Shown: positions 1,627 through 29,702 of the stretch, piece after piece
Position numbering within the stretch: the first letter of the stretch is position 1
Layout: each line of letters begins with the position of its first letter
From: Synechococcus sp. KORDI-100
Lineage (GTDB): Bacteria > Cyanobacteriota > Cyanobacteriia > PCC-6307 > Cyanobiaceae
DNA: 64,000 nt
Direction: 5' to 3'
Assembly: GCF_000737535.1 (NCBI RefSeq)
Contig: NZ_CP006269.1
Coordinates: 1,488,001-1,552,000, forward strand
The notes under the pieces: generated by a model
Database searches by the model: none
Told to the model about the DNA's origin: nothing
The model's input: the letters and a program-made list of their open reading frames with translations, nothing else
Program-made: the position numbers and the translations under genes

Positions 1627-1636
1627 TGGTTTTGGT

Positions 1637-6179: not shown

Positions 6180-6222
6180 TGGCTCCTGATCGGGTGAATC
6201 GGGGAGCGAATGGACGGTTGAA

Positions 6223-6299
<77 letters not shown>

Positions 6300-6310
6300 G
6301 ATTCAAGCTA

Positions 6311-6646: not shown

Positions 6647-6714
6647 GCGGGGGAGCCCACCGCTCAGGTCCCATCACGATGCCATCTCTGCGTCAGGTCG
6701 CCCGTTGCAGGTGG

Positions 6715-7607: not shown

Positions 7608-7678
7608 GCTGAAGCGACTGGTCTCCAGAGCCTAAACAGACCTGTTGAGACCCCGAGGCGCCATTACCACGCGCGCGA

Positions 7679-7945
7679 TCAATCAGCTTGCGACGCTGGT
7701 TCCTGAGTCGGCTCAACCTGAATGTGATTGATCAGGGTGGTCACAAAAGCGAACAGCAGGAAAGGCAGGCTCAGCACAAGGATCAAGCCAACGCCGACCA
7801 GCGCGAATAGAGGTCGGGAGGAACCCATCAGTGCCAGTCCGGCGGCCAGGCTCACGAAGATCACCGCCATCCACGCCAGCACCTGGCCGTAGATATCACC
7901 GAAGGTGAGTGTGCAGCGGACGGAAAAAGGGTTGCTGCTGGTCAT
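7679..7945 (-). CDS. Small two-span membrane protein of unknown function
   Basis: An 88-residue protein beginning MTSSNPFSVRCTLTFGDIYG, with two hydrophobic segments (about residues 22-40 and 46-70). The frame is open 54 bp upstream, but the N-terminus at 7945 looks natural and has AGG a few bases before the ATG. It lies between msrA and an ABC exporter, all on the minus strand. No family name is known to me. Confidence 0.65.
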   Translation of the reverse strand: MTSSNPFSVRCTLTFGDIYGQVLAWMAVIFVSLAAGLALMGSSRPLFALVGVGLILVLSLPFLLFAFVTTLINHIQVEPTQEPASQAD

Positions 7946-8013
7946 GACCTGGGAGGACGTTTGTTCAGCTAAGGCGGACAGGCTTGGTTTGTCCGGCAAT
8001 GTTCAAAACTCTT

Positions 8014-9810
8014 TCAGGACGCCATCGCATCCAGTTGTTCAGCAGCCTGCTGGCGTTCCCAGAGTCGCTGATAGGTGCCATGGGTACGGATCAGATCGTT
8101 GTGATGACCTTGCTGGACGATTCTGCCTGCTTCCATGACCAGAATCCGATCGCAGGCTGCGGCAGCGGACAGTTGATGACTGATCATCACGATGGTGCGG
8201 TCATCCTGGCCGCGAATCGACTCAAGAACCGCTGCAGCGGTGTTGTTGTCGACACTGGCGAGCGCGTCGTCGAGAACGAGCACAGGGGACGACACCAGCA
8301 GTGCCCTCCCCAGGGCGGTCCGCTGCCGCTGGCCGCCGCTGAGGGTGATTCCCCTCTCTCCAACCACGGTCTGGAAGCCATCGGGAAATCCGCGGACATC
8401 ATCGGCGATGCGGGCCTGTTCCGCTGAGTGGCGCACCTGCGCATCGCTGGCCTCGGGATCTCCGTAGCGCAGGTTGTCCGCCAGGGTGCTGGTGAACAAA
8501 AAGCCTTCCTGGGGCACCATGGCCACGGATCGGCGGAGGGTGTCCAGCGGCAGGCAGGTGACGTCCACGCCGTCAAGGAACAGTTGCCCGGGCTCCACCG
8601 GCACCATGCGACCGAATGCTTTGGCCAGCGTTGTCTTCCCGCAGCCAACCGGCCCTACAACGGAGACAAGTTCGCCTTCCTTGATGCTGAAGTCGACGCC
8701 GTGCAGGGTGTCCTGCTGGGCACCCTCGTACCGGATCCTGAGGCCCCTGGCCTCCAGTGTTCCTCTCAGGCGCTCAGTCACAGGGTTGGCTGTCAGCGGT
8801 GCAGAGGTGGGCTGCTGATCGCGAATCAGCGGCACGCGCTGAAGCAGTTCCTCCACACGTTCGAGGCTGACCTGGCCGATCTGGAAGGTGTTGAGCGTGA
8901 ACCCCAGTAACGCCGTCGGGAAGACCAGCTGTCCGACGTACAGGATCAGGGCAACCAGATCACCGGTGCTGACAGTGCCAGCTTCAAGCTTCCCGCTTCC
9001 CAGCGACAGCAGCAGCAGCAGTGAGATGGAGGAAATCCCCTCCAGCAGCGGAAACAGGGTGCTGCGTGTTCGGGAGAGGCGGATCTGGCTGTCTCGATAG
9101 TTGTGATTGCGCTCGCTGAACGCCGCCAGTTCCGATGACTCCTGGCTGTAGATCTTGATGGCGCCGATCCCGGAGAGGTCCTCCTGGATCAGGTCACTCA
9201 GATCGGCCAGATTTTCCTGCTGACGGCGCTGCTGATGCATCATGCGACTGCCGAAAAGCCGCACACAGGCCAGCATCACCGGATAGGGCCCGACCGCGAC
9301 AAGGGTGAGCACGGGGTCGATCGCCAGCATGGCGGGCAGCGTGAGGCTGTACACCAAGGCGGTGTTGGTCAGGCTCAGGATTGAAAATCCCAGCAGCCGG
9401 CGGATGTTCTCAACATCACTTGTGGCGCGAGCGATCACCTCGCCGCTGCCGGTGCTCTGAACCCAGGCAGGCTCCTGCCTGAGCATGTGATCAAACACTC
9501 GTTGCCGCAGCTCGACTTCAACCTGACGCCCGACGCCGAAGACCAGCTGTCGGGAGAAGAGTCGGACCACGGCCATCACACTTGCCAGCAGGGCGATCCA
9601 GCCGGCCTGCTGCAAGACGCTTCCGTAATCGAATCCCCCCTGGAGCTCATCGACAGCACTGCGGACTTCCCTCGGGATCGTCACTCCCAGAAGGTTGACG
9701 ATGACAAGGGCGATCGCCCCGAGCAGCACGGTGCGCCGGTGGGGGCGCAGATAGCGGCCGATCAGATCCAGGCGCAGGGCGGCCACGGCGTCAACCATGA
9801 GGAGCGCCAA
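8014..9810 (-). CDS. ABC transporter, fused permease and ATPase (exporter type)
   Basis: A 598-residue half-transporter. The N-terminal ~330 residues hold six transmembrane helices of the type-1 exporter fold, starting with RRTVLLGAIALVIVNLLG. The ATPase follows, with Walker A VGPVGCGKTTL near residue 388, the LSGGQ signature near residue 490, Walker B VLVLDDALASVD near 508 and the H-switch in MISHQLS. It should act as a homodimer or with a second half-transporter; no partner is adjacent. Substrate is unknown (lipid, peptide or drug). A second ATG 12 bp downstream is an alternative start. Confidence 0.92.
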   Translation of the reverse strand: MALLMVDAVAALRLDLIGRYLRPHRRTVLLGAIALVIVNLLGVTIPREVRSAVDELQGGFDYGSVLQQAGWIALLASVMAVVRLFSRQLVFGVGRQVEVELRQRVFDHMLRQEPAWVQSTGSGEVIARATSDVENIRRLLGFSILSLTNTALVYSLTLPAMLAIDPVLTLVAVGPYPVMLACVRLFGSRMMHQQRRQQENLADLSDLIQEDLSGIGAIKIYSQESSELAAFSERNHNYRDSQIRLSRTRSTLFPLLEGISSISLLLLLSLGSGKLEAGTVSTGDLVALILYVGQLVFPTALLGFTLNTFQIGQVSLERVEELLQRVPLIRDQQPTSAPLTANPVTERLRGTLEARGLRIRYEGAQQDTLHGVDFSIKEGELVSVVGPVGCGKTTLAKAFGRMVPVEPGQLFLDGVDVTCLPLDTLRRSVAMVPQEGFLFTSTLADNLRYGDPEASDAQVRHSAEQARIADDVRGFPDGFQTVVGERGITLSGGQRQRTALGRALLVSSPVLVLDDALASVDNNTAAAVLESIRGQDDRTIVMISHQLSAAAACDRILVMEAGRIVQQGHHNDLIRTHGTYQRLWERQQAAEQLDAMAS

Positions 9811-9856
9811 CCTAATCAGGCAACTGCATCAAGCTGTCAGAAGCACCGCTCAGCCC

Positions 9857-10186
9857 ATGTCAGAACCGGAGTCCACGGATGCCTCCAGCCAGAGCCATCC
9901 CCTGGAGGCAAGCGATCGAGACCACCTGGACCGCATGCTGGCGAGGGAGTCGCCGCAGGATGGTGATCTGGCCGACCTGGCGCGCCTGCTGATTCGTTAC
10001 GACGGCTTTCCGGGGGCTGATGATCTCCAGAGGGATATGCAGCGGCTTCTGTCGATCTGGAAACTCAGCCGTGATGAGCTCAACCAGCGGGTGAGAGGTC
10101 TCTGGACTGCGGGGTATCGCCCCGGCCCAGCCGGTGATGAGGCGGTTGGATCGGGATTTGATACCAGCGAGGCCGAGGGCAGCTGA
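9857..10186 (+). CDS. DUF3288 family protein
   Basis: A 109-residue protein. The core DLADLARLLIRYDGFPGADDLQRDMQRLLSIWKLS matches the small cyanobacterial DUF3288 family as I remember it. Function unknown. The frame is open another 60 bp upstream; 9857 (MSEPEST) was chosen because the upstream part overlaps the promoter region of the divergent ABC gene. A terminator follows at 10246. Confidence 0.8.
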   Translation: MSEPESTDASSQSHPLEASDRDHLDRMLARESPQDGDLADLARLLIRYDGFPGADDLQRDMQRLLSIWKLSRDELNQRVRGLWTAGYRPGPAGDEAVGSGFDTSEAEGS

Positions 10187-10245
10187 GCGAATGCTGGTCA
10201 CGAAAGCGCTTTTTGGGGGATAGTGGAGATGTCCCCATCACCCGG

Positions 10246-10274
10246 CCCGGAGTGCGTTGCACCCGGGTTTTTTT
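10246..10274 (+). terminator. Rho-independent terminator between DUF3288 and trpD
   Basis: CCCGG-A-GTGC, loop GTT, GCAC-CCGGG forms a nine-base-pair stem with one bulged A, followed by seven Ts. It lies 60 bp after DUF3288 and only 20 bp before the trpD start, so it could also act as a leader attenuator if transcription starts upstream of it. Confidence 0.88.
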
Positions 10275-10293
10275 CTGTCACTGGTCCGTCGCC

Positions 10294-11340
10294 ATGTCCT
10301 TTGAACGTCCGTCCTGGCCAGCACTTCTCGACAGCGTCATCGAAGGGCACCATCTCAGCGACGAGCAGTCCACTGCCCTGATGCGGGCCTGGCTGGCCGA
10401 GGAGCTCACGCCGGTTCAGACCGGTGGCTTCCTCATCGCCTTGCGTGCCAAAGGACTGGTGTCCGAGGAACTGGCGGCGATGGCGGCTGTTCTGCGTGAG
10501 GCATGCCCCCTTCCCTGTGAACGGCCCGAACTCCTGATGGTCGACACCTGTGGCACCGGTGGTGATGGTGCCGACACCTTCAACATCTCGACAGCTGTTG
10601 CTTTCACTGCGGCGGCCTGTGGCGTGTCGGTGGCCAAGCACGGCAACCGCAGTGCCAGCGGCAAGGTGGGCTCTGCCGATGTTCTGGAGGGTCTCGGTCT
10701 GCAGCTCAAGGCACCACTGGCAACGGTGGTGAAGGCCCTTTCAACGGCTGGTGTCACCTTTCTCTTCGCTCCGGCATGGCATCCGGCTCTCGTGAACCTG
10801 GCGCCTCTGCGACGCAGCCTTGGTGTTCGCACGGTGTTCAACCTGCTTGGACCGTTGGTGAACCCCCTCCGACCCCAGGCCCAGGTGCTGGGGGTGGCTC
10901 GCGAGCAACTTCTGCTGCCGATGGCAGGGGCCTTGCGGGATCTTGGAGTCCAGCGATCCATCGTTGTTCATGGTGCTGGAGGACTGGATGAAGCGTCCCT
11001 TGCCGGTCCCAATCAGTTGCAGATGATTGAAGCCGGCACCATCACGCCGCAGACCATCGCCCCCGAGGATGTCGGCCTGATCCAGGCTCCGCTGGAGGCA
11101 CTCAAGGGTGGTGATCTGTCCGCCAATCAGGAGATCTTGCGTTCGGTGCTGCAAGGACGGGGCAGCCGCGCTCAGATGGATGTCGTGGCCTTCAACACGG
11201 CACTGGTGCTCTGGGCCGCCGGCCAGGAGCAGGATCTCGCACGGGCTGTGCAGCAGTCCCTGGATGTGATGGAACGTGGGCTGCCCTGGCAGCGCCTCGA
11301 GGGACTGCGTATGGCTTTGGCCGATCGAAATGGAGAATGA
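10294..11340 (+). CDS. trpD: Anthranilate phosphoribosyltransferase
   Basis: Transfers phosphoribose from PRPP to anthranilate in tryptophan synthesis. The 348-residue protein has the glycine-rich VDTCGTGGDGADTFNIST motif near residues 83-100, the KHGNRSASGKVGSADVLE segment, and DLGVQRSIVVHGAGGLDE, all standard for TrpD. Start 10294 (MSFERP) was chosen over an earlier in-frame start that lies within the terminator region. carA follows 30 bp downstream on the same strand. Confidence 0.96.
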   Translation: MSFERPSWPALLDSVIEGHHLSDEQSTALMRAWLAEELTPVQTGGFLIALRAKGLVSEELAAMAAVLREACPLPCERPELLMVDTCGTGGDGADTFNISTAVAFTAAACGVSVAKHGNRSASGKVGSADVLEGLGLQLKAPLATVVKALSTAGVTFLFAPAWHPALVNLAPLRRSLGVRTVFNLLGPLVNPLRPQAQVLGVAREQLLLPMAGALRDLGVQRSIVVHGAGGLDEASLAGPNQLQMIEAGTITPQTIAPEDVGLIQAPLEALKGGDLSANQEILRSVLQGRGSRAQMDVVAFNTALVLWAAGQEQDLARAVQQSLDVMERGLPWQRLEGLRMALADRNGE

Positions 11341-11370
11341 AGACAGATCGCTTCGCATCGGACAGCGCTG

Positions 11371-12522
11371 ATGACTGATTCATCGTCCGCTGATGCTCAT
11401 CTCATCCTTGCGGATGGCACCGTCCTCCGGGGCCGCTCATTCGGTCATCGGGGCTCCGTTGTCGGGGAGGTGGTGTTCAACACAGGAATGACTGGATATC
11501 AGGAAGTGATCACGGATCCGAGTTATGCGGGTCAGCTGGTCACATTCACCTATCCGGAGTTGGGAAACACCGGGGTGAATCCCGAGGACCAGGAGGCAGA
11601 GCGTCCCCATGCCCGTGGAGTGATTGCCCGCCAGCTGGCTCCGAGGCCGAGCAACTGGCGCTGTCAGCAGCCTCTCGACACGTGGATGGCTGAACACGAT
11701 GTCGTCGGGATCTGCGGCATCGATACCCGAGCGCTCGTTCGTCATCTGCGGGAGGGCGGTGCCATGAACGGGGTGATCAGCAGCGATGGACGCTCCCAGA
11801 CCGAGCTGTTGGCCGAGCTCCGCTCCGCTCCATCGATGGAAGGCCTCAACCTGGCTGATCAGGTGAGCACCAAAACGCCTTACTCACGCTCGACTCCCTC
11901 TCGTGTCGGGTTCGATCAGCGCCTCAAGTCGCGGCTGGAGCACCCCTACCGCGTTGCAGCGATCGATTTCGGGATCAAACGGGCCATTCTCGATCGTCTT
12001 GTGGCCCATGGCTGCGATGTGACCGTGTTTCCCGCAGACACGAATTTGAACACTGTGCTGCAGGATTCACCGGACGGCGTGTTCCTCTCCAACGGTCCCG
12101 GTGATCCGTCCGCCGTCGTCGGGGGAATCACGTTGGCCAGGCAACTCCTTGAGCAGGCCGATCTCCCCTTGTTCGGGATCTGTCTTGGCCATCAGATTCT
12201 GGGTTTAGCCCTCGGAGGAAGCACGTTCAAGCTGGCGTATGGCCATCGCGGCCTGAACCATCCATGTGGCACCACAGGACAGGTTGAGATCACCAGCCAG
12301 AACCATGGCTTCGCATTGGATGCGACGTCGTTGCCAAAGGACGTCGTGGATGTCACCCACTGGAACCTCAACGACCGCACCGTGGCCGCCTTTGCCCATC
12401 GTTATCAACCTGTCTTCGGAGTGCAATATCACCCTGAGGCCAGTCCAGGACCGCATGATGCCGATCATCACTTCGCCCGATTTGCGGCGTTGATGGGGGA
12501 ACGCCGCTCAGGGCGTGGTTGA
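11371..12522 (+). CDS. carA: Carbamoyl-phosphate synthase small subunit
   Basis: The glutaminase subunit that supplies ammonia to CarB for carbamoyl phosphate, feeding arginine and pyrimidines. The 383-residue protein starts with the CPSase small-chain domain ([32 protein letters not shown]) and ends with a class I glutamine amidotransferase carrying FGICLGHQ (nucleophile Cys) and [12 protein letters not shown] (His, Glu). carB is not in the window. Confidence 0.97.
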
Positions 12523-12554
12523 CAGTCGCCAGGATCCCTACACTCCGTGCGTGA

Positions 12555-12941
12555 ATGCCCGGAGGGGTTGGTCCCATCAGCGAATTGCAGCGACTGACCG
12601 TTTCGCTCCGCGGCGGCTTTGATCAGAAGGATGGCTGCCTGGTGTTTCACTTCACCGGTCAGTTGGATGCCTATTCCGAGAAGCAGTTCATGGACTACGT
12701 GGGCGATGTCCTCAAAGCCAGCAAACTGCCTTCAGTAATTGATCTGAGCAAGATTGATTTCCTCGACTCCTCAGGCCTTGGAGCGCTTGTTCAGGTCTCC
12801 AAGAGGTGCAAGGACGCCAAACGATCATTTGCAGTTGTGGGCAACTCCAGAGTCACTCAGACAGTGAAACTTGTACGCCTTGAGGAGTTTCTGAATTTGG
12901 TGAATGATCTGCCTACAGCGCTCAGTCGGATGACCGCTTGA
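12555..12941 (+). CDS. STAS-domain anti-sigma-factor antagonist
   Basis: A 128-residue single-domain STAS protein of the SpoIIAA type. DLSKIDFLDSSGLGALVQ (near residues 58-75) contains the phosphorylatable Ser in DSSGLG. It probably takes part in partner-switching control of a sigma factor or other target; no cognate kinase or anti-sigma factor is in the window. The ATG at 12555 has no clear ribosome-binding site, whereas GGAGG at 12561-12565 precedes an ATC codon at 12576 that begins ISELQRLTVSL, so the start is in doubt. The end overlaps the next gene by 4 bp (TTGA). Confidence 0.88.
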   Translation: MPGGVGPISELQRLTVSLRGGFDQKDGCLVFHFTGQLDAYSEKQFMDYVGDVLKASKLPSVIDLSKIDFLDSSGLGALVQVSKRCKDAKRSFAVVGNSRVTQTVKLVRLEEFLNLVNDLPTALSRMTA

Positions 12942-13363
12942 GCGACTGGATCCGAGGCCATCCGCATTCACCGGGTTCTTCTGATCTGGGCGTGCTGCAG
13001 CTCGCCTGGCTTGGCGATGCCGTCTGGGAACTTCATCAACGCCTGCGCCATTGCCGACAACCCGGTCGTTCAGACGATCTTCATCGTGCCGTCGTGGCCG
13101 AAGTGAGAGCCGATGCTCAAGCCATTGCTTTGCAACGGCTTGAACCCTGGCTCGAGGACGAGGAAAAGGCTCTGGTTCGCCGAGGTCGCAACCGCGCCGG
13201 CCGCGGACCCCGATCAGCTGATGCTGCGACCTATGGCCAGGCCACTGGATTTGAGACAATGGTTGGCTGGCTGTTTTTGCACAATCCAGACCGCCTCGCG
13301 CAGCTACTGGATCAGCTGGAAAGCACCGGACAACCGTCGAAACAACGCTTCGAAACCCCATGA
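12938..13363 (+). CDS. mrnC: Mini-ribonuclease III
   Basis: A dsRNA endonuclease lacking the dsRNA-binding domain of RNase III, known in Gram-positives and cyanobacteria for 23S rRNA maturation. The 141-residue protein has LQLAWLGDAVWELHQR near residues 20-35, with the catalytic Asp in LGDAV, and an ATGFETMVGWLFL segment matching the second acidic motif. The start is TTG, overlapping the STAS gene by 4 bp. The next gene, a TrmH-type rRNA methyltransferase, overlaps it by 4 bp (ATGA), so an rRNA-processing operon is likely. Confidence 0.9.
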   Translation: MSDWIRGHPHSPGSSDLGVLQLAWLGDAVWELHQRLRHCRQPGRSDDLHRAVVAEVRADAQAIALQRLEPWLEDEEKALVRRGRNRAGRGPRSADAATYGQATGFETMVGWLFLHNPDRLAQLLDQLESTGQPSKQRFETP

Positions 13364-15036
13364 GTCCTCGTTTTGAACGTCGTTCCGGTGGTCCGCCACG
13401 CGATCCACGATCCAGCCGTGATGGCCGTCCCCTGAGGGATGGCAGACGCCGCACAGGTGGAAGTTCGCGATCCGAATCGGACAGCCGTGGACGTCGCGAA
13501 TGGCGACGCGACTGGAATCCCACCCCTGACCAGCCTCGTGGCGAGCGACCGATGCGACGCCGGGACGATGAAATGGGATCGGAACGTTTTGATCGATCCC
13601 GACCTGGCCCATCCCGCAGCGGTCCATCCCGTTCGGGCCCATCCCGAAATGGTCCGACGCGTTCCGGCCCGACCCGCAGCGGTCCATCGCGTTCTCCGGC
13701 TCGTGCCGGTTCATCCCGTTCTGGCACGTCTCGGTCAGGATCACGTCCGGAATGGGGAGCTGGCCCGCGCGCTGGCCTTCGCAATGGACCGCGTGATTCC
13801 CGCCAAGAACGGATGCCGCGCTCGATGCAGGACCGTCGACCACCATCGCGGATGGGTCCCCAGCGCGAACTGGAGCCGGAAGCGTTCGCAGCCTCACCAC
13901 CGCCCGATGACCTGATCTGGGGGCGACACGCCAGTCTTGCGGCCTTGGAATCCGGGCGTCCGATTCACAGAATCTGGTGTACGCCTGAAATGCGGAGCGC
14001 AGCCAAGTTCCTGCAGCTTCTTCGAGATGCCAAGAGTTCCGGCGTCCTTGTCGAGGAGGTCACCTGGGCTCGCCTCGGTCAGGTCACCGGAGGCTCGGTG
14101 CATCAGGGCATCGCGCTGCAGACGGCCGCTGCAGACACCCTTGACCTCGATGCCCTGATCAACGGCTGCAAGGAGCTGGGTGAGGCGCCACTTCTGCTGG
14201 CCCTTGATGGCGTCACCGATCCCCACAATCTCGGGGCTGTGGTCCGGTCCGCCGAAGCGATGGGAGCCCACGGTGTGGTTCTGCCGCAGCGGCGCAGTGC
14301 TGGACTCACCGGTTCCGTCGCCAAGGTGGCGGCCGGCGCGCTGGAGCATATGCCGGTGGCCCGCGTTGTCAATCTCAATCGATCACTCGAGACACTCAAG
14401 GATGCTGGTTACCGCGTCATCGGTCTCGCTGCCGAGGGCGACACGACGCTGCTGGATGTGGATCTGGACGGACCTCTTGTTCTGGTGACCGGTTCCGAGA
14501 GCCAGGGACTGTCTCTGCTGACCCGGCGCCATTGTGATCACCTCGTCCGGATTCCACTGCGTGGCGTGACCCCCAGCCTGAATGCCTCGGTGGCCACGGC
14601 TCTCTGCGTCTATGAAGTGGCTCGTCGAGGCTGGATGAAAGACATCCACGGCCAGGCTCCATCCCCACCGATGACCAGGCCGAAAACCGCACCTGTTCAG
14701 GACTCGCCCTCCACTGATGTGGCTGTCGCGACTGAGCAGGCTGTTTCCACTGAGCAGGCTGTTTCCACTGAGCAGGTCTTCGAATCAGCCCAGGCCGTGT
14801 CGCCAGAACCGCAAACGTCATCAGGGCCAGCCTTCCAATCAGAACAGCCGCCTAGGTCAGAACAGCCAGCGACTTCAGAACAGACAGCGACGTCACAACA
14901 ACCCGATCAGAAACAACAACCGTCATCGCCCAAGGATGGTTCAGACACTCCGTTGACGGAAGTTGCGCTGGATCTCAGTCAATCGCCGCAGGGCGCTTCG
15001 ATCCGGTTTGATCAGAGCATCCAATTATCGTCCTGA
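13360..15036 (+). CDS. rlmB: TrmH/SpoU-family RNA 2'-O-methyltransferase with long disordered tails
   Basis: A 558-residue protein. Residues about 185-430 are a SpoU methyltransferase: substrate-binding domain from DLIWGRHASLAAL, then ALDGVTDPHNLGAVVRSAEAMG, LVTGSESQGLS and IPLRGVTPSLNASVATALCVYE, the knotted AdoMet site. This fits RlmB (23S rRNA Gm2251), though target specificity is inferred. The N-terminal ~180 residues are Arg/Ser/Gly/Pro-rich with repeated SRSGP units, probably disordered and RNA-binding. The C-terminal ~125 residues are Ser/Gln/Glu-rich with tandem AVSTEQ repeats encoded by near-identical 21 bp DNA units around 14735-14780. Confidence 0.88.
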   Translation: MSPRFERRSGGPPRDPRSSRDGRPLRDGRRRTGGSSRSESDSRGRREWRRDWNPTPDQPRGERPMRRRDDEMGSERFDRSRPGPSRSGPSRSGPSRNGPTRSGPTRSGPSRSPARAGSSRSGTSRSGSRPEWGAGPRAGLRNGPRDSRQERMPRSMQDRRPPSRMGPQRELEPEAFAASPPPDDLIWGRHASLAALESGRPIHRIWCTPEMRSAAKFLQLLRDAKSSGVLVEEVTWARLGQVTGGSVHQGIALQTAAADTLDLDALINGCKELGEAPLLLALDGVTDPHNLGAVVRSAEAMGAHGVVLPQRRSAGLTGSVAKVAAGALEHMPVARVVNLNRSLETLKDAGYRVIGLAAEGDTTLLDVDLDGPLVLVTGSESQGLSLLTRRHCDHLVRIPLRGVTPSLNASVATALCVYEVARRGWMKDIHGQAPSPPMTRPKTAPVQDSPSTDVAVATEQAVSTEQAVSTEQVFESAQAVSPEPQTSSGPAFQSEQPPRSEQPATSEQTATSQQPDQKQQPSSPKDGSDTPLTEVALDLSQSPQGASIRFDQSIQLSS

Positions 15037-21147: not shown

Positions 21148-21357
21148 ACCGCGCCGTAAGACTCCAATTCAACACTATACATTCATGGCTTGGAGGGGGG
21201 AGATGGCGACGGTTCTCAACCGCTGCTATATCAGAATAATTTTGCAACAATGTGGGCTCAAATGAGGGCTAATGATGACAAAGTCTGCGGCCGTGCTGAA
21301 ATGAACTTGACATCTCAGATTACGAGCAATTAAATTAAGGGTATAGAAATTTATGCG
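21148..21357. other. Intergenic leader between rpsO and the island operon
   Basis: This 210-bp stretch holds the divergent control regions of rpsO and the 12-gene operon. The sequence becomes AT-rich from about 21150. No clear promoter hexamers or gene were identified; a start region for the operon transcript should lie here. Confidence 0.5.
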
Positions 21358-21699
21358 ATGCAAGTCGGTCTAATTCTTTCAATTCCGCTAGTTGCCTTGC
21401 TGATTGTTGGTTGTTTTGGGATCCTCAACTCAAAATCTATTATTAGTTCTCTCTTTTCCCTCGACGTTATTGATACTGCCACAATCAGTATTTTTGTTCT
21501 GATCGCAGCTTATTCCGGCTCCCAGACACCAATTATCTCAGACGGGCCTCGCTACGCCAACTATTCAGATCCTTACCCTCAGGCCATTATCCTCACGGCA
21601 ATTGTGATTGGATTTGCGACTCAAGCGTTGCTTTGTGCGATTGCACTGCGGCTGAGCCGTTCGACACCCCTGTTGCGATACAAAGATTTAGAGAAATGA
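21358..21699 (+). CDS. mrpC: Mrp-type antiporter subunit C (NuoK-like)
   Basis: A 113-residue membrane protein with three hydrophobic segments (residues 2-20, 36-52, 74-98), resembling MrpC/MnhC and NuoK. The motif DPYPQAIILTAIVIGFATQALLCAIALRL matches the conserved DPLPQALILTAIVI block of MrpC. First gene of the island operon; mrpD starts inside its stop codon (ATGA overlap). AT-rich relative to flanking genes. Confidence 0.88.
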   Translation: MQVGLILSIPLVALLIVGCFGILNSKSIISSLFSLDVIDTATISIFVLIAAYSGSQTPIISDGPRYANYSDPYPQAIILTAIVIGFATQALLCAIALRLSRSTPLLRYKDLEK

Positions 21700-23222
21700 T
21701 TGACTCACCTATTTTTTACGCAATATTAACTTTTTTGCCTGCAACAGTAGGCTTTCTCGGCTGCGTTTTTCATCGTATTTTTTTTCCGATTTGCCTTGCT
21801 TATTTAGTCGGTCTGTCCGCCTTTTCTATCGCTGGAATATTTAATGCATGGGAGGCAAGTTATACCTTGATGTGGATTGGGGGAATACAATTTAGCTTTG
21901 ACCAATTCACCTATCCCCTTCTTTTTGGAACAAGCTTTTCATTGTTTACATCTTTATTGTTGTTCAGAAAGCAACTAAGTCATTACTTTTACCAAATCTC
22001 GTTTGTACTTCTAACCGCCTTGACGGTTGCCTTCTCAGCCGTCGATCTGATCAGTATTTACATTGCACTTGAACTAACAGGATTCTGTGCATTTTTGCTG
22101 ATTGCGGATCGGAATGATAATAAATCTCTCTTTTTGTCGTTCCAGTATTTAATTGGCGGCGGCTTGGCAATGTTGATCTATTTAATTGGTGTCATTGGCG
22201 CGTTTCAATTTTCGGCAACGTTCCTGATTCGAGATCTCTCGTATGCAACACCTATCGCCTTATGCTTGATCATTGCAGGATTAATGACGAAGGCTGGCAT
22301 TTTTATCTGTGGCTTGTGGGTCCCAAATATTTATTCGCACGCCTCACCGCAATCCTCTGCCATCCTTGCTGGTTGCGTCACTTGTGCAGGAATTGCACCA
22401 ATCGCCAGAATGAGTGGAGACCTGGTGCCGATCGCCAATTCAATGGTTGTTATCGGTGTTTTAAGTGCTGTTGTTGCAGCTCTCTACGCCGTTTTTGAAC
22501 GAGATGATGGACGTGCCCTTGGTTGGAGTTCTGTTTCGCAGCTGGGTTTGGCCATTTTGTCTCCAACCTATGCCTGCATCTATGCGATGCAGCATGGTGT
22601 TTGCAAGGCTCTTTTGTTTTCGACGTTAACTCCCGAGGATCCACCTGCACATCATGAACAATCAAATCATCACTCGGCAGACCAGGAAACTCCATCAAAC
22701 GTTTCAACTTTCCAGAATTATGCATCATTAATTGTTTTCGTAACGGCAAGCCTTTCAGTGATGGCATTTCCGTTGACTTCTGGTTTCATCACAAAAAGCT
22801 TGCTCAAAGGCGATATTCCAACAAATGCGAAAATCATTGTTTCAACATCCACGTTGCTAACAACGACTGTCTACGTCCGCTTGATCTGGTCAAGGATTCA
22901 AGTGTTCCTTGGATTTAGACGAGAAATCATGGCCAAGAAATATCACAATAAAACCTCCTCGTTTTATACAAATCAAATCTTCTTGATCATTTCCTCGATT
23001 GCCATTATTTCGTTCAGCATCACTGACCGATCAGTATTAACCTACGACAATATTGTTAACGCTTTGACGGCGACGGGTTTAGGAATTATCCTCTATGCAT
23101 CAGTTGTTGGATTACAGACTGTCAAAATTGTCAAGCCAGTCACTCGAACTCTTGATCTGGTTGGAGCTCCATTTGTTGTGGCGGCATTGTTACTTGCCAA
23201 TCTTCTCTACTTCAAAATTTAA
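21696..23222 (+). CDS. mrpD: Mrp-type antiporter subunit D (NuoL/M/N-like)
   Basis: A 508-residue multi-span protein with the antiporter-like fold shared with complex I subunits. SFDQFTYPLLFGTSF, SAVDLISIYIALELTGFCAFLLI (with the Glu that takes part in proton transfer in the family) and a Lys in MTKAGIFICGLWVPNIYSHA are recognisable. A His-rich loop (PPAHHEQSNHHSADQ) lies near residue 345, where related proteins have a short loop. The start uses ATGA overlap with mrpC. Only one D-type subunit is present, and no large MrpA. Confidence 0.88.
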   Translation: MIDSPIFYAILTFLPATVGFLGCVFHRIFFPICLAYLVGLSAFSIAGIFNAWEASYTLMWIGGIQFSFDQFTYPLLFGTSFSLFTSLLLFRKQLSHYFYQISFVLLTALTVAFSAVDLISIYIALELTGFCAFLLIADRNDNKSLFLSFQYLIGGGLAMLIYLIGVIGAFQFSATFLIRDLSYATPIALCLIIAGLMTKAGIFICGLWVPNIYSHASPQSSAILAGCVTCAGIAPIARMSGDLVPIANSMVVIGVLSAVVAALYAVFERDDGRALGWSSVSQLGLAILSPTYACIYAMQHGVCKALLFSTLTPEDPPAHHEQSNHHSADQETPSNVSTFQNYASLIVFVTASLSVMAFPLTSGFITKSLLKGDIPTNAKIIVSTSTLLTTTVYVRLIWSRIQVFLGFRREIMAKKYHNKTSSFYTNQIFLIISSIAIISFSITDRSVLTYDNIVNALTATGLGIILYASVVGLQTVKIVKPVTRTLDLVGAPFVVAALLLANLLYFKI

Positions 23223-23231
23223 CCAACAATC

Positions 23232-23645
23232 ATGAAAAATCTCTTTCGATTGGTTCTGGTTTTGTTGTTTCGAACGAGTTGTTGGATTTTAATCACATCA
23301 AACTTTACAACTATTAACTTCTTGCTTGGTTTCTTCCTCTCAGTACTAATACCACTGGGCTCTTATAAATCACTGCGGTTAAGAGCACTTATCCCGTCTC
23401 TCTTGAATATTGTAAAAATCATTCCTAGTTTAATTACTGAAACCTGGCAAATCATACGAATTCGACGACCAGTCGATCTATTTAAAGTTCAACATATGTG
23501 CCCATACACGCTTCGTGGATCAAAATTTGCCCAATTTATCCAGGTGATTGCGATCACTTCAACTCCGATGTCAATTGTTGCAGGAAAAAGTGACGATGAA
23601 AATTGGATAGTCCATCTGGTGGGGGATAAAAGAAATCAACCATGA
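23232..23645 (+). CDS. mrpE: Mrp-type antiporter subunit E
   Basis: A 137-residue protein with two N-terminal hydrophobic segments and a cytoplasmic C-terminal half, as in MrpE/MnhE. TINFLLGFFLSVLIPL and the later TPMSIVAGKSDDENWIVHLV segment correspond to the conserved TPGT/WLYVHVL region of the family. It follows mrpD by 9 bp and overlaps mrpF by 4 bp. Confidence 0.78.
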   Translation: MKNLFRLVLVLLFRTSCWILITSNFTTINFLLGFFLSVLIPLGSYKSLRLRALIPSLLNIVKIIPSLITETWQIIRIRRPVDLFKVQHMCPYTLRGSKFAQFIQVIAITSTPMSIVAGKSDDENWIVHLVGDKRNQP

Positions 23646-23914
23646 TTGAACCCATTTTATTGCTGCCTATTCATTTTGCGTTTATTTTGCTGATGTTATT
23701 GGCAAGTTCATTGTCCATCGCGGCTGTCGCACGTTCTTCATCGTTGAGTGAGCGCATTGCGGTTGCTGGCAGTTTTAGTAATAAAATGGCTCTGGTTATA
23801 TTGTCATTTGGAATTTTTCGAAATGATTGGATGATTGGAAGCGTTGGAGCTGTTATTTTTATTGCAGGAGATGCTGGGATGCTTATTCTGGCTCTTACAG
23901 AACTAAAGGAGTAA
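23642..23914 (+). CDS. mrpF: Mrp-type antiporter subunit F
   Basis: A 90-residue protein with three hydrophobic spans, the size and pattern of MrpF/MnhF. SLSERIAVAGSFSNKMALVIL resembles the conserved DRVVALD..-type loop, in a diverged form. The order E-F-G and 4-bp overlap with mrpE support the call more than sequence alone. Confidence 0.75.
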   Translation: MIEPILLLPIHFAFILLMLLASSLSIAAVARSSSLSERIAVAGSFSNKMALVILSFGIFRNDWMIGSVGAVIFIAGDAGMLILALTELKE

Positions 23915-23920
23915 TACACA

Positions 23921-24193
23921 ATGAACCTCCAACTTCTCAGTTCTCACCTCTTAATATCAATAGGCTTGATTCTTTGGTTCTGGGGAACAACTCCACTGTT
24001 GAACAAATCACATAATTTGTTCTACAAATTACACATGTTAACTGTTTCGGATACTGTTGGATCTGTTTTGATTGTCTCAGGTCTTCTCGTTTTTGCACCC
24101 AATCAGTGGCCCATATTGTTTGTAGTGACAGTTTCATTTGTCTTATGGAACACCATTTTTTCGTATCTCTTCGCTGTTCTGGCAAATCGATAG
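23921..24193 (+). CDS. mrpG: Mrp-type antiporter subunit G
   Basis: A 90-residue, three-span protein beginning MNLQLLSSHLLISIGLILWFWGT. The KLHMLTVSDTVGSVLIVSGLL region corresponds to the RLHA...TLG conserved block of MrpG/MnhG. The next gene starts on the base directly after its stop codon. Confidence 0.8.
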   Translation: MNLQLLSSHLLISIGLILWFWGTTPLLNKSHNLFYKLHMLTVSDTVGSVLIVSGLLVFAPNQWPILFVVTVSFVLWNTIFSYLFAVLANR

Positions 24194-24754
24194 ATGCCTA
24201 CCCGTACTCTTTTTCTCCTGCCTGTCGAGCTTGTCCTTCCGATTCTTGGAATCCTGCTGATTCGCACGCAATCTCCTATTCGTGGCCTCATTTACAGGTC
24301 TTTTCTTGGATCCCTTGCAGCTCTTATTTATGCAATTTTTGGAGCCCCTGATGTAGCGCTTACAGAGGTTCTAGTTGGGACGTTGTTGTCGTCTATCCTG
24401 TACATTATTACAATTCGTGCTTGCTACAGCGCTGTAATCGTCGTTTCTGATGAAGTCGAAGTGCCTCAGGCGATGATGGAGCACTTAAAATCGATGTTTA
24501 GTGAGTTGCGAATGAATATCGTATTGCAACCGACTAAACTTTCCCATAGCAAAGAAGATTATGACAATCTTTTCACTCTCAAGACACTTGCAGGATCACC
24601 GCATGCCATCTTAGATGGAAATGAACTTTGCATTGAATCACCGATACTTTTGGAAGAGCTAATGGAAACTGATTATTACACAGCCAATCCTTTTTTAGAC
24701 ATGATGTACTGCCCTGAATGCCAACTCGGTTTGACCTCAGAAAGACCCTCATGA
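24194..24754 (+). CDS. mrpA: MbhD-like (MrpA C-terminal, DUF4040) subunit with extra cytosolic tail
   Basis: A 186-residue protein. Residues 1-75 form three spans with LGSLAALIYAIFGAPDVALTEVLVGTLLSSILY, the signature of the MbhD/DUF4040 domain normally found near the C-terminus of large MrpA. The ~500-residue NuoL-like part of MrpA is absent. Residues 90-186 are a soluble tail of unknown role, ending with a CPEC motif at 174-177. In cyanobacterial mrp operons this short gene is usually called mrpA; the label is by position. It overlaps the next gene by 4 bp (ATGA). Confidence 0.75.
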   Translation: MPTRTLFLLPVELVLPILGILLIRTQSPIRGLIYRSFLGSLAALIYAIFGAPDVALTEVLVGTLLSSILYIITIRACYSAVIVVSDEVEVPQAMMEHLKSMFSELRMNIVLQPTKLSHSKEDYDNLFTLKTLAGSPHAILDGNELCIESPILLEELMETDYYTANPFLDMMYCPECQLGLTSERPS

Positions 24755-25446
24755 AACAAATAAAATTCACTACAGACTTTTTCAAGTCGTCGTTTTATCT
24801 GCTGGCGATTTCCTTTGTATTTATCAGTGGTTTGTTGATCATTCCAGAATCCACTCAAAGAAATACAAACGCTATCGTCGATTACCTGGTCAGAACAGCC
24901 GACATTCCCAACTCAGTCACTGCTGTCATCCTTGGATCACGTCTTTTCGATACCATCGGCGAGGTGATTGTTTTTACGATTGCTGGGCTTGGCGTTAAAA
25001 TACTTCTTCACTCCGAGGATGCTGAAACGCGATTGATCGGCGTTCAGGATCCAGTGATTATCAATTTATTGGATTTTGTTGCCCTTCTTATCGGCTTTTT
25101 GGCCTTCGAACTCGCAATCCGTGGGCACCTAAGCCCCGGTGGAGGCTTTGCAGCTGGAGTCGCCGGGGCCACATCCATTAGTTTGTTAATGGTTAGCGGA
25201 CGTCTCCAGCGGATCGAGGATTTCTACAGTCGATACAACGCAGCAGTCGTTGAAAAGTTTGCCGTTGTCGTTTTTATTTTGATTGCAATGACGAGTTTTA
25301 CATCTGTCATCATTCCTGAGAGTCCATTTTCCTTTGTTCCACAGAATATCTATATTCCTGTTCTTAATGTTGTTGCTGGTTTAAAGGTTACGATTGGTGC
25401 CTGGTCAGTGATTCGATTATTTATCACAAAACGCGGGATTATTTAG
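24751..25446 (+). CDS. mrpB: Fused MbhE-like and MrpB/MnhB antiporter subunit
   Basis: A 231-residue membrane protein. Residues 1-90 carry NSVTAVILGSRLFDTIGEVI, typical of the MbhE-like segment at the extreme C-terminus of large MrpA. Residues 100-231 carry ELAIRGHLSPGGGFAAGV, the diagnostic HxxPGGGFxAG motif of MnhB/MrpB. Thus the C-terminal pieces of MrpA are distributed over this gene and the previous one. Start 24751 gives ATGA overlap with the previous gene. A cation antiporter role is inferred. Confidence 0.85.
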   Translation: MKQIKFTTDFFKSSFYLLAISFVFISGLLIIPESTQRNTNAIVDYLVRTADIPNSVTAVILGSRLFDTIGEVIVFTIAGLGVKILLHSEDAETRLIGVQDPVIINLLDFVALLIGFLAFELAIRGHLSPGGGFAAGVAGATSISLLMVSGRLQRIEDFYSRYNAAVVEKFAVVVFILIAMTSFTSVIIPESPFSFVPQNIYIPVLNVVAGLKVTIGAWSVIRLFITKRGII

Positions 25447-25448
25447 GT

Positions 25449-26207
25449 GTGAAAGACAGTAGGGGTATCGGCCAAGATCTCTGGTACTTCGGAGATTATT
25501 TGGGTGGTTTTTCTGGTGCTAACTATAACTACATTGTCTATCTTGCTATTGCATTATTGCTATTTGCAATTGCTCTCTCGACGGAAGTTGGACTTCAGCC
25601 GATTGTTTATAACCTTTACATCCCTTATACCTATGAGTTGATCGAAGTGTTTTTTATTGCTGACTATATTGGAAAAGTTGCCAATACATGGTCGCTCTAT
25701 GGCTATAAGCCGATTTATTTGTTGACCTCTATCCTGAAAATTAGAGCAGTCATTGATCTGTCGACATTATTGCTTTTGATTACTGACTTTTTGCCAAATT
25801 CTTCGTTGCCAGTGATTTCATTATATCTAACAAAGGTCTTGATTCTATTTTATTTTTCAGATCTGAGGGATATCATTCTAAGAGTTAGATACATTGTATT
25901 CAGTCAACCGGCTAAGACATTTTTTCCACTGACATTGCTGGCAATTGTTACCTATTCACTTGCTGTTGTCATGTATCTTGTCGAAGGAAAAGTTGATCCA
26001 GAGCATTTTGGGTCAATATTGAAGTCTCTTTGGTTTTCATTTGTAAGCGCGACAACCATTGGCTATGGAGACGTAACACCAGTTTCATTTCTTGGCCGCA
26101 TCTTAACCTCAACATTTGCGCTTTTTGGTATTGTTTGCATTGCGATATTGACAGCCAATATTATTGACCTTAATGCAAGGTATGATGAACAATCTTCAGG
26201 CCAATAG
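25449..26207 (+). CDS. K+ channel of the six-span type with a weak voltage sensor
   Basis: A 252-residue membrane protein whose pore has the selectivity filter TTIGYGDVTP at residues 202-211, flanked by pore helix (SLWFSFVSA) and a last inner helix (residues 212-240). Upstream are four to five hydrophobic spans; the segment at S4 position (SDLRDIILRVRYIVF, residues 137-151) keeps only a few Arg, fewer than classic voltage sensors. GTG start two bases after mrpB, so it belongs to the same operon. There is no RCK/TrkA domain. Moving K+ alongside an electrogenic Mrp antiporter is a plausible role. Confidence 0.85.
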   Translation: MKDSRGIGQDLWYFGDYLGGFSGANYNYIVYLAIALLLFAIALSTEVGLQPIVYNLYIPYTYELIEVFFIADYIGKVANTWSLYGYKPIYLLTSILKIRAVIDLSTLLLLITDFLPNSSLPVISLYLTKVLILFYFSDLRDIILRVRYIVFSQPAKTFFPLTLLAIVTYSLAVVMYLVEGKVDPEHFGSILKSLWFSFVSATTIGYGDVTPVSFLGRILTSTFALFGIVCIAILTANIIDLNARYDEQSSGQ

Positions 26208-26275
26208 CGAGATGTTTAAAAGTGTTGATCGGCTAACATCCTCACATGCGAGCCTGATTCGATGTAAATTTAGTC

Positions 26276-27013
26276 ATGCTTTGGATGATTATGAAATCAC
26301 TCAATCATATTATCGATGCATCAACGCCTTATTCAATTTTTAAAGCTTATATAGATTCTTACTCAGAGTATGTCGGTTTGCTTAAGTTTGGTTGGGGAAG
26401 TTTGCTGATCGATCCAGAACTTAAGGAAAAAAAGGTTTTATTGGATGAGCATAATATTGAATCGACACCTGGTGGCACTCTGTTTGAATACTTTTACCAG
26501 AAAAATGACTTAGAGTCATTTCGTGAGCTTCTCAGGAATTTAAATTTTAAAGCTGTTGAATTAAGCCGCGGCACGGTTTCAATTTCCGATAATGAGTATT
26601 TCAACTTGATCTCTCAATTTTCAACTGACTTTAAGGTTTTTAGTGAGGTTGGTTTTAAATCACCAGAACTTTCCGATCAAATGAGTCCATCAGATTGGAT
26701 TCGTAGTTGTCAGCTGTCGTTGGATGCTGGAGCAGAGATGGTTATCCTTGAAGCTCGAGAATCTGGTACTGCAGGAATTGTTGATCAAGACGGGATGATC
26801 AAGACACCACTTTTAACGCATCTCGCCAGCACACTTGGTCTGGATTCAATTTTATTTGAAGCTCCAGTTAAATCGATGCAGGCTCATCTTATTAATCTCT
26901 TTGGTACAGACGTGAATCTTGGCAATATAAACCTTCAAAGCATTCTTCCTCTTCAAGCTTTGCGTCGGCGTTTGCGCTCCGATACTTTGCTGACATCTTT
27001 AATGTCCGCATGA
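26276..27013 (+). CDS. comA: Phosphosulfolactate synthase (ComA family)
   Basis: Family members add sulfite to phosphoenolpyruvate, giving (2R)-phospho-3-sulfolactate, the first step to sulfolactate or coenzyme M. The 245-residue TIM-barrel protein keeps the family blocks in order: KFGWGS (37-42), TPGGTLFEY (64-72), FKAVELS (91-97), SEVGFK (123-128), DAGAEMVILEARESG (150-164), LFEAP (193-197), VNLGNI (213-218) and LQALRRRLRSDTL (226-238). It aligns by eye to archaeal ComA and bacterial YitD. No ComB-type phosphatase or ComC dehydrogenase is in the window. The start is uncertain (ATGs at 26276, 26285, 26291). It overlaps the VOC gene by 4 bp. Confidence 0.9.
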   Translation: MLWMIMKSLNHIIDASTPYSIFKAYIDSYSEYVGLLKFGWGSLLIDPELKEKKVLLDEHNIESTPGGTLFEYFYQKNDLESFRELLRNLNFKAVELSRGTVSISDNEYFNLISQFSTDFKVFSEVGFKSPELSDQMSPSDWIRSCQLSLDAGAEMVILEARESGTAGIVDQDGMIKTPLLTHLASTLGLDSILFEAPVKSMQAHLINLFGTDVNLGNINLQSILPLQALRRRLRSDTLLTSLMSA

Positions 27014-27438
27014 CGTTCAATTTTCATCCAACGATATCGACGGGTCTTTTGATCCATGTAGCGATCCCGTCCTATGAGCTTGATCAAAGTTTGACCTTCT
27101 ATCGCGATGTGTTGGGTGCCACTCCTTTTCGTGTCATGGACGACCGAATCACCTTTGGACTTCACAATCTTCAGCTCGTGTGTCATCTAACCAGTCCAGA
27201 TGACACGCAGCCGAGTAGCAGCTTTTACCCTCGTCACTTTGGAATCACGTTTGTTAGCAGCACTGATTATCACCATTTTTATGAGTCTGTGGTTGCTCAC
27301 CACGGCTGCTTCGTTTATTCTGAACTCACGTCACGCTTTTCCGGTCGACCCGATGAACATATGACTTTTATTTTAAAAGATCCATCCGGAAACTTTGTTG
27401 AATTCAAGCATTACGCACAAGCTAATTCGTCTTTTTAA
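27010..27438 (+). CDS. VOC-superfamily (glyoxalase/dioxygenase fold) protein
   Basis: A 142-residue protein. LLIHVAIPSYELDQSLTFYRDVLGATPFRVMDDRITFGL and the C-terminal FILKDPSGNFVEFKHY are the two halves of a vicinal-oxygen-chelate fold, with His in the first strand and Glu in the last as likely metal ligands. Substrate unknown. Position directly between comA (4 bp overlap) and the solute-binding protein (1 bp overlap) suggests it acts on a related small metabolite. Confidence 0.85.
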   Translation: MTFNFHPTISTGLLIHVAIPSYELDQSLTFYRDVLGATPFRVMDDRITFGLHNLQLVCHLTSPDDTQPSSSFYPRHFGITFVSSTDYHHFYESVVAHHGCFVYSELTSRFSGRPDEHMTFILKDPSGNFVEFKHYAQANSSF

Positions 27439-28325
27439 TGTTCATGAGGTTTCCCATACCACAACGCCAAATTTTCAGCATATTGTTAGGGGTGTTGTTG
27501 TTTGTCACGCCATACATGTTCGTTGACATGGCGTTTGCGGCAGAAATCAAATATATTGACAAAATTCTAGAGCGTGGATATTTAAAAATTGGGCTACCAC
27601 CCTATACAACACCTCCTTTTTACTTCAATGAAGACAACGGTGACCTAGCAGGTTATGATGTTGAAATTGTTAAAAACTTTGCCGATTTTCTTGGAGTTGA
27701 TGTTCAGTTTGATCGCGACTCCAAGAGTTTTAATGATCTTGTGAGGCGTTCAGGCGCCAACGATTTTGATATGGCAATCGGGAAACTTGGAACAACTTAC
27801 AAGCGCATGTCTGATGCTCATCCCCATGAATACATGAACTTCAGGCATGCAATTCTTGCAAATCGTAAAGCGATCGCCAATCTACAAGGCAATACCCCCG
27901 ACAGCCAATTTGCTCGAGTTCTCCTCGATTCAAATATTTCCCTAGGTTTTATTGGACGATCAGCTTATGACACATATGCGAATTCACTTTTCCCAAATGC
28001 TAATAAAATTGGCTACGACGATTGGACGAAATGTAAGGAAGCACTTTTTGCAGGAGAGGTGGATGGTATCTACAGAGATGCAACCGAGATCAAGAAAATT
28101 GTTTATCAAGAGCCTACCCTATCTCTGGATTTTGTTCCAGTTCTGTTCGAGGATATTGTTGACCAAAAATCAATTTATTTGTCCACTGAAGCGGATATTG
28201 ATATGGCATCAATCCTCAACTATTATCTTGCCAAGGAAGTAACCATCAAAGATGACACGGAAATCATTGAAGAGTTTCCTGAATTTTACAAACCCAATAA
28301 AGAGCTTTCTACTCAATCATCTTAA
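27438..28325 (+). CDS. Family-3 periplasmic solute-binding protein, orphan
   Basis: A 295-residue protein with a signal peptide (hydrophobic residues 12-33, cleavage near AFAAE). ILERGYLKIGLPPYTTPPFYFNEDNGDLAGYDVEIVKNFADFLGV is the standard opening of SBP_bac_3 amino-acid or organic-acid binding proteins. No ABC permease or ATPase is nearby; the next gene is a secondary symporter. The start ATG overlaps the previous TAA stop by one base. The ligand is unknown, perhaps an acidic amino acid, dicarboxylate or sulfonate. Confidence 0.85.
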   Translation: MFMRFPIPQRQIFSILLGVLLFVTPYMFVDMAFAAEIKYIDKILERGYLKIGLPPYTTPPFYFNEDNGDLAGYDVEIVKNFADFLGVDVQFDRDSKSFNDLVRRSGANDFDMAIGKLGTTYKRMSDAHPHEYMNFRHAILANRKAIANLQGNTPDSQFARVLLDSNISLGFIGRSAYDTYANSLFPNANKIGYDDWTKCKEALFAGEVDGIYRDATEIKKIVYQEPTLSLDFVPVLFEDIVDQKSIYLSTEADIDMASILNYYLAKEVTIKDDTEIIEEFPEFYKPNKELSTQSS

Positions 28326-28343
28326 AAGAGGTCTTTGCTTGTC

Positions 28344-29702
28344 ATGACGATTCTTCCCTTCAGCTTCAAAAAGATTGCGCTTAACTGGCAAGGTTTTCGA
28401 AGTTCGCTTCGGAAGCTTCGTTCGGTCAAAGCTTTTGTTTTCTTCATTCTGCCGGTCGCTCTTGTTCTTGGTTTATTTCTTCCAGATGCAGCGGATACGC
28501 TCAATTCATTTGGATTGACACTGATTCAGCTGATTTCTTTTCCTGCAATACCACTTGTCCTGACGGCCGTCGTCGTATCAACCTATTCAATTTTTTCTCT
28601 GTCTGATTCAGCTGAGCAGGAATTTAAGTTCACGCGTCGGCTCTTTTTATCACTTCTCGCATTAATACTCTTCATTTCTGTCTTTGCTCTTCTGCTGTCT
28701 CTTTATCAAAAGCCTGGGGAATTATCTCCGGAAGGAAGACTCTCGATTGGCACATATATGCTTGACGTCACCGATATCAGGTTGACCTTGTCTTCAGCAG
28801 CTTCAGACGCTGTAGATCCTTTTGAGTGGGCGAAAAAAATTCTGCCAAATAACATTGTGGGCGATGCATCCCGTGGACAGACTCTCAAGGTGATAAGTGG
28901 ATCGGTCCTGCTTGGCTGGGGTTTATCACTTTTGCCCAGAGATAAATCAGCTCCACTGCTCACCATCATCAGGGGAATCTACGACGTTTCGGTGAAGGTT
29001 CTAGATGAACTCTTGTTGATTGCACCGCTTGTTGTTATTTGTTTGATCGCAGGTGCATTTTCCACCATTAATTCAGAGATCATTGTGTCTCTGTTGACTT
29101 TAACGATTTGTATGCTTCTTGCGTCCTTGGCGTCCCTTGGCATCAGTCGTTTGATTGTCAAACGCTTTACGACATCGGCAGAGCGAGCAACCTCGGAGGT
29201 CAACCCTGCAGATTCAGTTTTCCTGCTCGGGCTCTCCACAGGCAGCAGCCTGGCTTGTTATCCAACCATCATGCGCGCGATGGAAAAGATGGGGCGTAAT
29301 TGTTCTCACACTGAAGCGGCCGCATCATTGAGCCTTCTGATTTCAAGAATGGGGAATATCATTTACAACATTATTGCTATTGTATTTGCACTGAATCTTT
29401 TTGAAGTCAAATTTTCCCCAGCCATTCTTCTGCAGATTCTTGTTCTTGGAATCGTGACTGGTATTTCCGCTGCTGGTTTGAACGGGGTGGCTGTTGTCCC
29501 AACCATCGGTTTGGCCCTGACAAGTTTTCAGTTGCCCATTCCGCCCATTCTCGTTCTCTTGCTTGCCGTTGATCCGATTTTGACACTTCCTCGAGCTGCA
29601 ACGACTGGCGTTCTTGCCATGGCCGTGACGGTGATCTCATCTGACCGCGACCCGGAACATACCTGCAATCAACAGTCCTATGAATCGCTGGTTGAGGTCT
29701 GA
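28344..29702 (+). CDS. Dicarboxylate/amino acid:cation symporter (DAACS, SDF family), diverged
   Basis: A 452-residue multi-span protein of the GltP/DctA type. LSTGSSLACYPTIMRAMEKMG corresponds to the serine-rich reentrant hairpin HP1, and LLLAVDPILTLPRAATTGVLAMAVTVI to the last helix, which in the family carries the substrate-contacting D and R and the sodium site. Both are diverged from well-known glutamate carriers, so substrate may differ. A TTG at 28335 with AGAGG close upstream is an alternative start. Last gene of the operon; converges on ruvA. Sodium coupling would fit with the Mrp antiporter in the same transcript. Confidence 0.82.
   Translation: MTILPFSFKKIALNWQGFRSSLRKLRSVKAFVFFILPVALVLGLFLPDAADTLNSFGLTLIQLISFPAIPLVLTAVVVSTYSIFSLSDSAEQEFKFTRRLFLSLLALILFISVFALLLSLYQKPGELSPEGRLSIGTYMLDVTDIRLTLSSAASDAVDPFEWAKKILPNNIVGDASRGQTLKVISGSVLLGWGLSLLPRDKSAPLLTIIRGIYDVSVKVLDELLLIAPLVVICLIAGAFSTINSEIIVSLLTLTICMLLASLASLGISRLIVKRFTTSAERATSEVNPADSVFLLGLSTGSSLACYPTIMRAMEKMGRNCSHTEAAASLSLLISRMGNIIYNIIAIVFALNLFEVKFSPAILLQILVLGIVTGISAAGLNGVAVVPTIGLALTSFQLPIPPILVLLLAVDPILTLPRAATTGVLAMAVTVISSDRDPEHTCNQQSYESLVEV

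Follow-up and report, generated by a model that had tools for sequence, protein, structure and literature searches.

A ComA-family (2R)-phospho-3-sulfolactate synthase homologue in an Mrp antiporter operon of marine Synechococcus

Here we show that Synechococcus sp. KORDI-100 carries, as a single copy in its 2.79-Mb genome, a homologue of (2R)-phospho-3-sulfolactate synthase (ComA), and that the gene is embedded in an operon together with Mrp-type antiporter subunits, a potassium-channel-like protein, and a solute uptake system. The gene itself belongs to a known family; the arrangement around it appears to be new: in the open literature searched we found neither a description of comA within an Mrp operon nor any paper on ComA or sulfolactate in Synechococcus. 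We offer as best explanation, with a probability of about one half, that ComA and a ComB-family phosphatase would yield sulfolactate as a K+/Na+-balancing anion or osmolyte, with a metalloprotein of the VOC superfamily modifying the product.

Marine sulfonates feed much of the heterotrophic sulfur cycle of the plankton, with those of short chain length usually attributed to eukaryotic phytoplankton. DHPS and isethionate, for example, have been associated with diatoms (PMC8269262). With comA present in a delimited group of marine Synechococcus, sulfolactate synthesis in abundant cyanobacteria gains a direct genetic route that can be tested, and gene order would tie this sulfonate pathway to ion homeostasis. 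If the proposed explanation is correct, marine C3-sulfonates would have a cyanobacterial source in these Synechococcus, and the VOC protein would be an undescribed enzyme of phosphosulfolactate metabolism that they share with Bacillaceae and Actinomycetota. The comA-VOC pair offers a piece so far missing from sulfolactate metabolism, and one open to testing.

Family, fold, and conserved residues of ComA

The comA open reading frame (26276..27013, forward strand, 245 amino acids, with an alternative start possible at 26291 [MKSLNH]) lies in a window of 64 kb, this being the whole stretch of DNA analysed. The original prediction of a ComA-type enzyme at this position was borne out by Pfam family PF02679 (222 bits, E 9.4e-66, curated cut-off 25.2, profile positions 12-243 of 243 covered) and by phmmer matches to the PDB entries 1QWG, 1U83, 24FO, and 9CM1 (E 1e-41 to 1e-44; about 1e-43 for 1QWG and 1U83). 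An AlphaFold2 model, for which an alignment of the window protein and the proteins of the other loci served as input, displayed a (beta/alpha)8 barrel (pLDDT 92.5, pTM 0.88) closely resembling ComA of Methanocaldococcus jannaschii (1QWG; Foldseek TM 0.89, VIA Z 32.8 over 241 residues) and Bacillus subtilis YitD (1U83; VIA Z 29.7), the top non-ComA fold reaching just Z 14.2. The dN/dS of comA between close pairs (0.05-0.16) reveals strong purifying selection. That the gene is a real ComA homologue, and the enzyme class to which it belongs, are thus strongly supported. The window protein does not reach the equivalog cut-off of NCBIfam TIGR03849 (arch_ComA; 190 vs 280 bits), but given that B. subtilis YitD also falls below it (224 bits, domain stretch 45-273), and that both M. 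jannaschii ComA (343 bits) and XcbB1 of the bacterial coenzyme M pathway (325 bits) pass, this model separates the archaeal-type group only and cannot decide function.

The near-invariant charged and polar residues of the ComA sequences compared (K43, K60, E79, E103, E133, K137, E168, R170, E171, E205, Q212, N227, R240, and R244 in M. jannaschii numbering) correspond to K37, K52, E71, E95, E124, K128 (the equivalent of K137), E159, R161, E162, E195, Q202, N217, R230, and R234 in the window protein, and all 14 are retained in each of the 10 intact Synechococcus copies. Active sites of TIM barrels are located at the C-terminal ends of the strands, and most of these residues sit at or just past those ends in the model. 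Based on conservation, and on K137 of M. jannaschii ComA, which we take to be an active-site residue, they are catalytic candidates. The checks put forward with the original prediction, namely a structural comparison with M. jannaschii ComA and an alignment that might expose a loss of catalytic residues, thus returned a ComA fold in which the K137 equivalent and all other invariant charged residues are kept.

Phylogenetically, the ten Synechococcus ComAs form a single clade (support 100/100) on a stem of 1.66 changes per column, grouping with neither the copy from a member of the Cyanobiaceae of another genus (G155), M. jannaschii ComA, nor XcbB1. The clade was placed near the base of the bacterial comA-VOC group, its exact position being unsure given the long branches. 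A closer relation to a non-sulfonate branch of the family had been named as a counter-possibility; in a tree built without plant Hsa32 sequences, the gene instead branches, on its long stem, with bacterial ComA, to which Bacillus yitCD (spore sulfolactate) belongs. Several positions conserved family-wide (D30, D157, R186, and, in most copies, E237; M. jannaschii numbering) are altered in the Synechococcus clade. Together with the long stem, these changes mean that the substrate could have shifted, such that another nucleophile is added to phosphoenolpyruvate, or another enol phosphate is used, and the product is not sulfolactate. While the lack of an adjacent ComB also favours such a shift, the retention of the invariant charged residues and of the fold, and the presence in two species of the VOC partner found in sulfolactate-type loci, argue against it, and we regard it as unlikely.

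Operon structure, distribution, and origin

The comA gene is the ninth of a co-directional run on the forward strand (21358-29702) with intergenic gaps of -67 to +68 bases, just upstream of which lies a promoter-like site, by consensus match only (TTGACA-18-TAAATT; 21307..21336, forward strand). The run begins with an MnhC/MrpC-like subunit (Oxidored_q2, PF00420; 21358..21699), an MnhD/MrpD-like antiporter subunit (PF00361, and the NF005564 family under its cut-off; 21633..23222) whose true start is probably ~60 bases downstream, and an MnhE-like subunit (23232..23645) identified by conserved position and a PF01899 match slightly under the cut-off (E 3.5e-5). These are followed by two small membrane proteins of 90 amino acids each (23642..24193), the first without a Pfam match, which are MnhF-/MnhG-like judging from their position and length and from being conserved in every operon; an MbhD / MrpA C-terminal-like subunit (PF13244; 24194..24754); an MnhB/MrpB-like subunit (PF04039, and NF009218 at 222 bits against a cut-off of 184; 24718..25446), whose relatives elsewhere in the sampled family share at most 46% identity; and a potassium-channel-like protein (PF07885; 25449..26207) with a TIGYGD pore motif. 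Downstream of comA, and overlapping it by 4 bases (ATGA), is the VOC-superfamily gene (PF00903; 27010..27438), and the run is completed by a periplasmic solute-binding protein (SBP) of family 3 (PF00497; 27438..28325) and an SLC1-type sodium:dicarboxylate/glutamate symporter (PF00375; 28335..29702). The original prediction correctly listed the VOC gene and the transport genes that follow it (27438-29702), and its ComA-type assignment, with sulfolactate as a reasonable product, still holds; it missed the upstream Mrp and K+-channel genes, as well as the recurrence of the comA-VOC pair elsewhere.

Genes of the run have a GC content of 38-47% (GC3 33-46%) vs 56% for the window, roughly 15 points under the flanks, and a comparable gap is seen at the operon in other species. 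The run is located close to rpsO and dnaG; the rpsO/ruvA/dnaG region of comA-negative species, G131 for example, lacks it. Low GC content and absence from the same conserved site give the run the appearance of an acquired island, and the operon was probably obtained horizontally. G214 has the same Mrp-SBP-SLC1 operon (L054, 4019-10644) at a different chromosomal site, lacking both K+ channel and comA, which suggests a mobile operon or one put together from modules.

Within the Synechococcus genus, comA was detected in 11 of 34 species. Sampling more broadly recovered it in 4 of 201 genomes at family level and in 3 of 386 at phylum level, the latter 3 all belonging to this genus. In genome contigs, where an alignment served as query because the window protein alone was too divergent to match, the named carriers are marine Synechococcus single-cell genomes. 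In each of the 11 genomes of the genus that carry comA (10 copies intact, and that of G215 truncated by a contig end), comA follows the K+ channel in the Mrp/K+-channel/SBP/SLC1 operon, and three genomes (G207, G222, and G214) have the operon without comA; co-occurrence of gene and operon is significant (Fisher p 1.3e-6, phylogeny not corrected). No ComA relatives were found in viral contigs and phage records, and to that extent comA is not carried by phages.

The VOC gene is kept in the genus by KORDI-100 (G000) and G203 only, and is thus dispensable; it was not found elsewhere in the genomes of comA-positive, VOC-negative species. In the VOC tree, the two Synechococcus copies are on a long branch beside the rest. 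The simplest reading is a single acquisition of the comA-VOC pair and subsequent loss of the VOC gene in one lineage. A separate observation concerns L096, a contig labelled Melainabacteria, whose comA is nested among those of Actinomycetota through either transfer or a binning error.

Partner proteins and potential fate of phosphosulfolactate

Invariant residues of the VOC protein include H16, H76, and E131, which by analogy with FosA-type proteins presumably form a 2-His-1-Glu metal site, in addition to R41, R46, H59, R75, R109, H117, and K133. The nearest structure is 3RRI of Alicyclobacillus acidocaldarius (Z 18.1), followed, among others, by the fosfomycin-resistance proteins FosA, FosB, and FosX, whose ligand is a small phosphonate. 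The predicted pocket would suit a small polyanion such as phosphosulfolactate. Outside the genus, where 76 comA loci (L063-L138) were compared, the same VOC subfamily lies directly beside comA in 66, and we therefore reject the view that the VOC gene is an unrelated neighbour. A role as plain replacement for ComB is also unlikely, as 23 Bacillota loci, arranged ComB-ComA-VOC, carry both. The pair occurs in several phyla, and the family libraries searched assign it no specific function.

Neither ComB nor ComC is encoded within the window, as had been claimed. The absence of ComC (PF02615) extends to all 34 genomes of the genus; that of ComB does not extend to the genome, where a search recovered a lone PF04029 (ComB-family) protein (G000:C1:1482435-1483121), which lies 4.9 kb to the left of where the window starts and 31 kb from comA, and which scores 415.5 bits against NF002053 ('2-phosphosulfolactate phosphatase family protein'; cut-off 319). 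This phosphatase could supply the step following ComA. However, 31 of the 34 genomes, among them all 19 highly complete ones, encode a member of this family regardless of comA. Its occurrence consequently does not speak for the pathway, and the enzyme may natively act on a different compound. A functional linkage of ComB and comA across 31 kb was rejected, given that comA-negative genomes carry ComB too. Sulfopyruvate decarboxylase alpha (TIGR03845) was absent from the KORDI-100 genome; without it and ComC, the route, if running at all, would stop at sulfolactate.

We propose that ComA would condense sulfite with phosphoenolpyruvate, its predicted activity, giving (2R)-phospho-3-sulfolactate, and that the ComB-family phosphatase would convert this into (R)-sulfolactate as end product. 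Made from abundant sulfate, sulfolactate would balance K+ during ion and pH stress, either as an osmolyte or as an organic anion free of nitrogen. The VOC metalloprotein would most likely act on the sulfonate product of ComA, for example by epimerising or modifying phosphosulfolactate or sulfolactate. A cation-balancing anion is suggested purely by gene order, comA being flanked by a K+ channel on one side and an uptake system on the other, behind a Na+/H+ antiporter; uptake systems of the SBP/SLC1 kind often carry anionic solutes. Speaking against this explanation are the divergence of the Synechococcus clade, the occurrence of ComB irrespective of comA, the survival of the operon without comA in three genomes, and, in the literature searched, the absence of any account of sulfolactate from Synechococcus. 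Its more specific form, in which sulfolactate is produced by marine Synechococcus specifically for use as counter-anion or osmolyte, via a one-operon island coupling Na+/H+ antiport, K+ conductance, and sulfonate synthesis, is put forward tentatively, the odds being somewhat against it.

Alternatively, ComA may trap excess sulfite on phosphoenolpyruvate, with sulfolactate exported or lost and the operon transporters moving either sulfolactate or co-transported ions. The ComA enzyme does consume sulfite, Bacillaceae comA genes lie beside PAPS reductase genes, and marine bacteria degrading 3-sulfolactate are described in work listed among the references of PMC9870897. The Synechococcus operon, however, contains ion transporters rather than any sulfite-producing or sulfite-export gene, and SBP and SLC1 suggest uptake more than export, making a sulfite sink or excreted C3-sulfonate improbable.

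Phosphosulfolactate or sulfolactate could also be precursors of a larger sulfonated molecule. An AMP-binding enzyme is encoded near comA in 36 of the 76 loci, nearly all of Actinomycetota, mostly together with an acyltransferase-3-like protein and always without ComB, such that ComB and AMP-binding enzyme are mutually exclusive near comA; ComA-VOC-AMP-binding-acyltransferase clusters also occur in some Alicyclobacillaceae. In G155 (L013, G155:C7:34000-53000, 1444-13492), comA-VOC is found inside an NRPS cluster comprising C-A-PCP, A-PCP, and AMP-binding/PCP proteins and a PEP-mutase/isocitrate-lyase-family gene; the product of this cluster may be a sulfonated peptide. The Synechococcus operon, in contrast, has no AMP-binding or NRPS gene, and we consider a precursor role there very unlikely. 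On a plasmid of Legionella lytica (NZ_CP071528.1; L140, 3742-6654), ComA forms the C-terminal part of a 970-amino-acid protein adjoining ComB and an aminotransferase, seemingly a different sulfolactate or cysteate pathway. Coenzyme M biosynthesis, although begun by ComA in archaea, is refuted as far as gene content goes, since ComC is missing genus-wide, sulfopyruvate decarboxylase alpha is missing from the genome, and comA has no lyase neighbours of the kind found in bacterial coenzyme M clusters.

Comparison with known systems

The window ComA shares 36-40% identity, in addition to fold and invariant residues, with M. jannaschii ComA, which serves coenzyme M synthesis with ComB-ComE; KORDI-100, in contrast, has ion-transporter neighbours and neither ComC nor the decarboxylase. 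XcbB1, encoded on a plasmid of Xanthobacter autotrophicus Py2, is likewise a bacterial member of the ComA family, but is distant in the tree and neighboured by argininosuccinate-lyase and fumarate-lyase family genes and a 1-aminocyclopropane-1-carboxylate deaminase gene.

Likeness to B. subtilis YitD (35-37% identity) extends to sulfolactate as presumed end product and to a ComB family member in the genome. In B. subtilis, yitC (ComB) lies in the same operon under sporulation-controlled expression, and yitCD were inferred to serve the synthesis of sulfolactate, which amounts to 5% of spore dry weight (PMC517825); in KORDI-100, ComB is remote and comA sits in the Mrp operon. Many of the Bacillota ComB-ComA-VOC loci lie beside divergent cysH/sat/cysC genes (sulfate to sulfite), and those of Bacillaceae, together with yitCD, would by analogy provide precedent for a sulfolactate end product, although the Bacillus-type placement of ComB beside comA with sulfate-reduction genes nearby is absent in Synechococcus. 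Overlapping or adjacent comA and VOC genes, with the same VOC subfamily, are shared with these Bacillaceae loci and with the Actinomycetota and Alicyclobacillaceae clusters, whereas a setting of Mrp antiporter, K+ channel, and SLC1 genes was seen in the Synechococcus genus only. Marine and other cyanobacterial Mrp (Mnh) operons have in common with it subunits C, D, E, F/G-like, MbhD/A-like, and B, and it is to this set that the Synechococcus operon adds comA, the K+ channel, the SBP, and the SLC1 gene.
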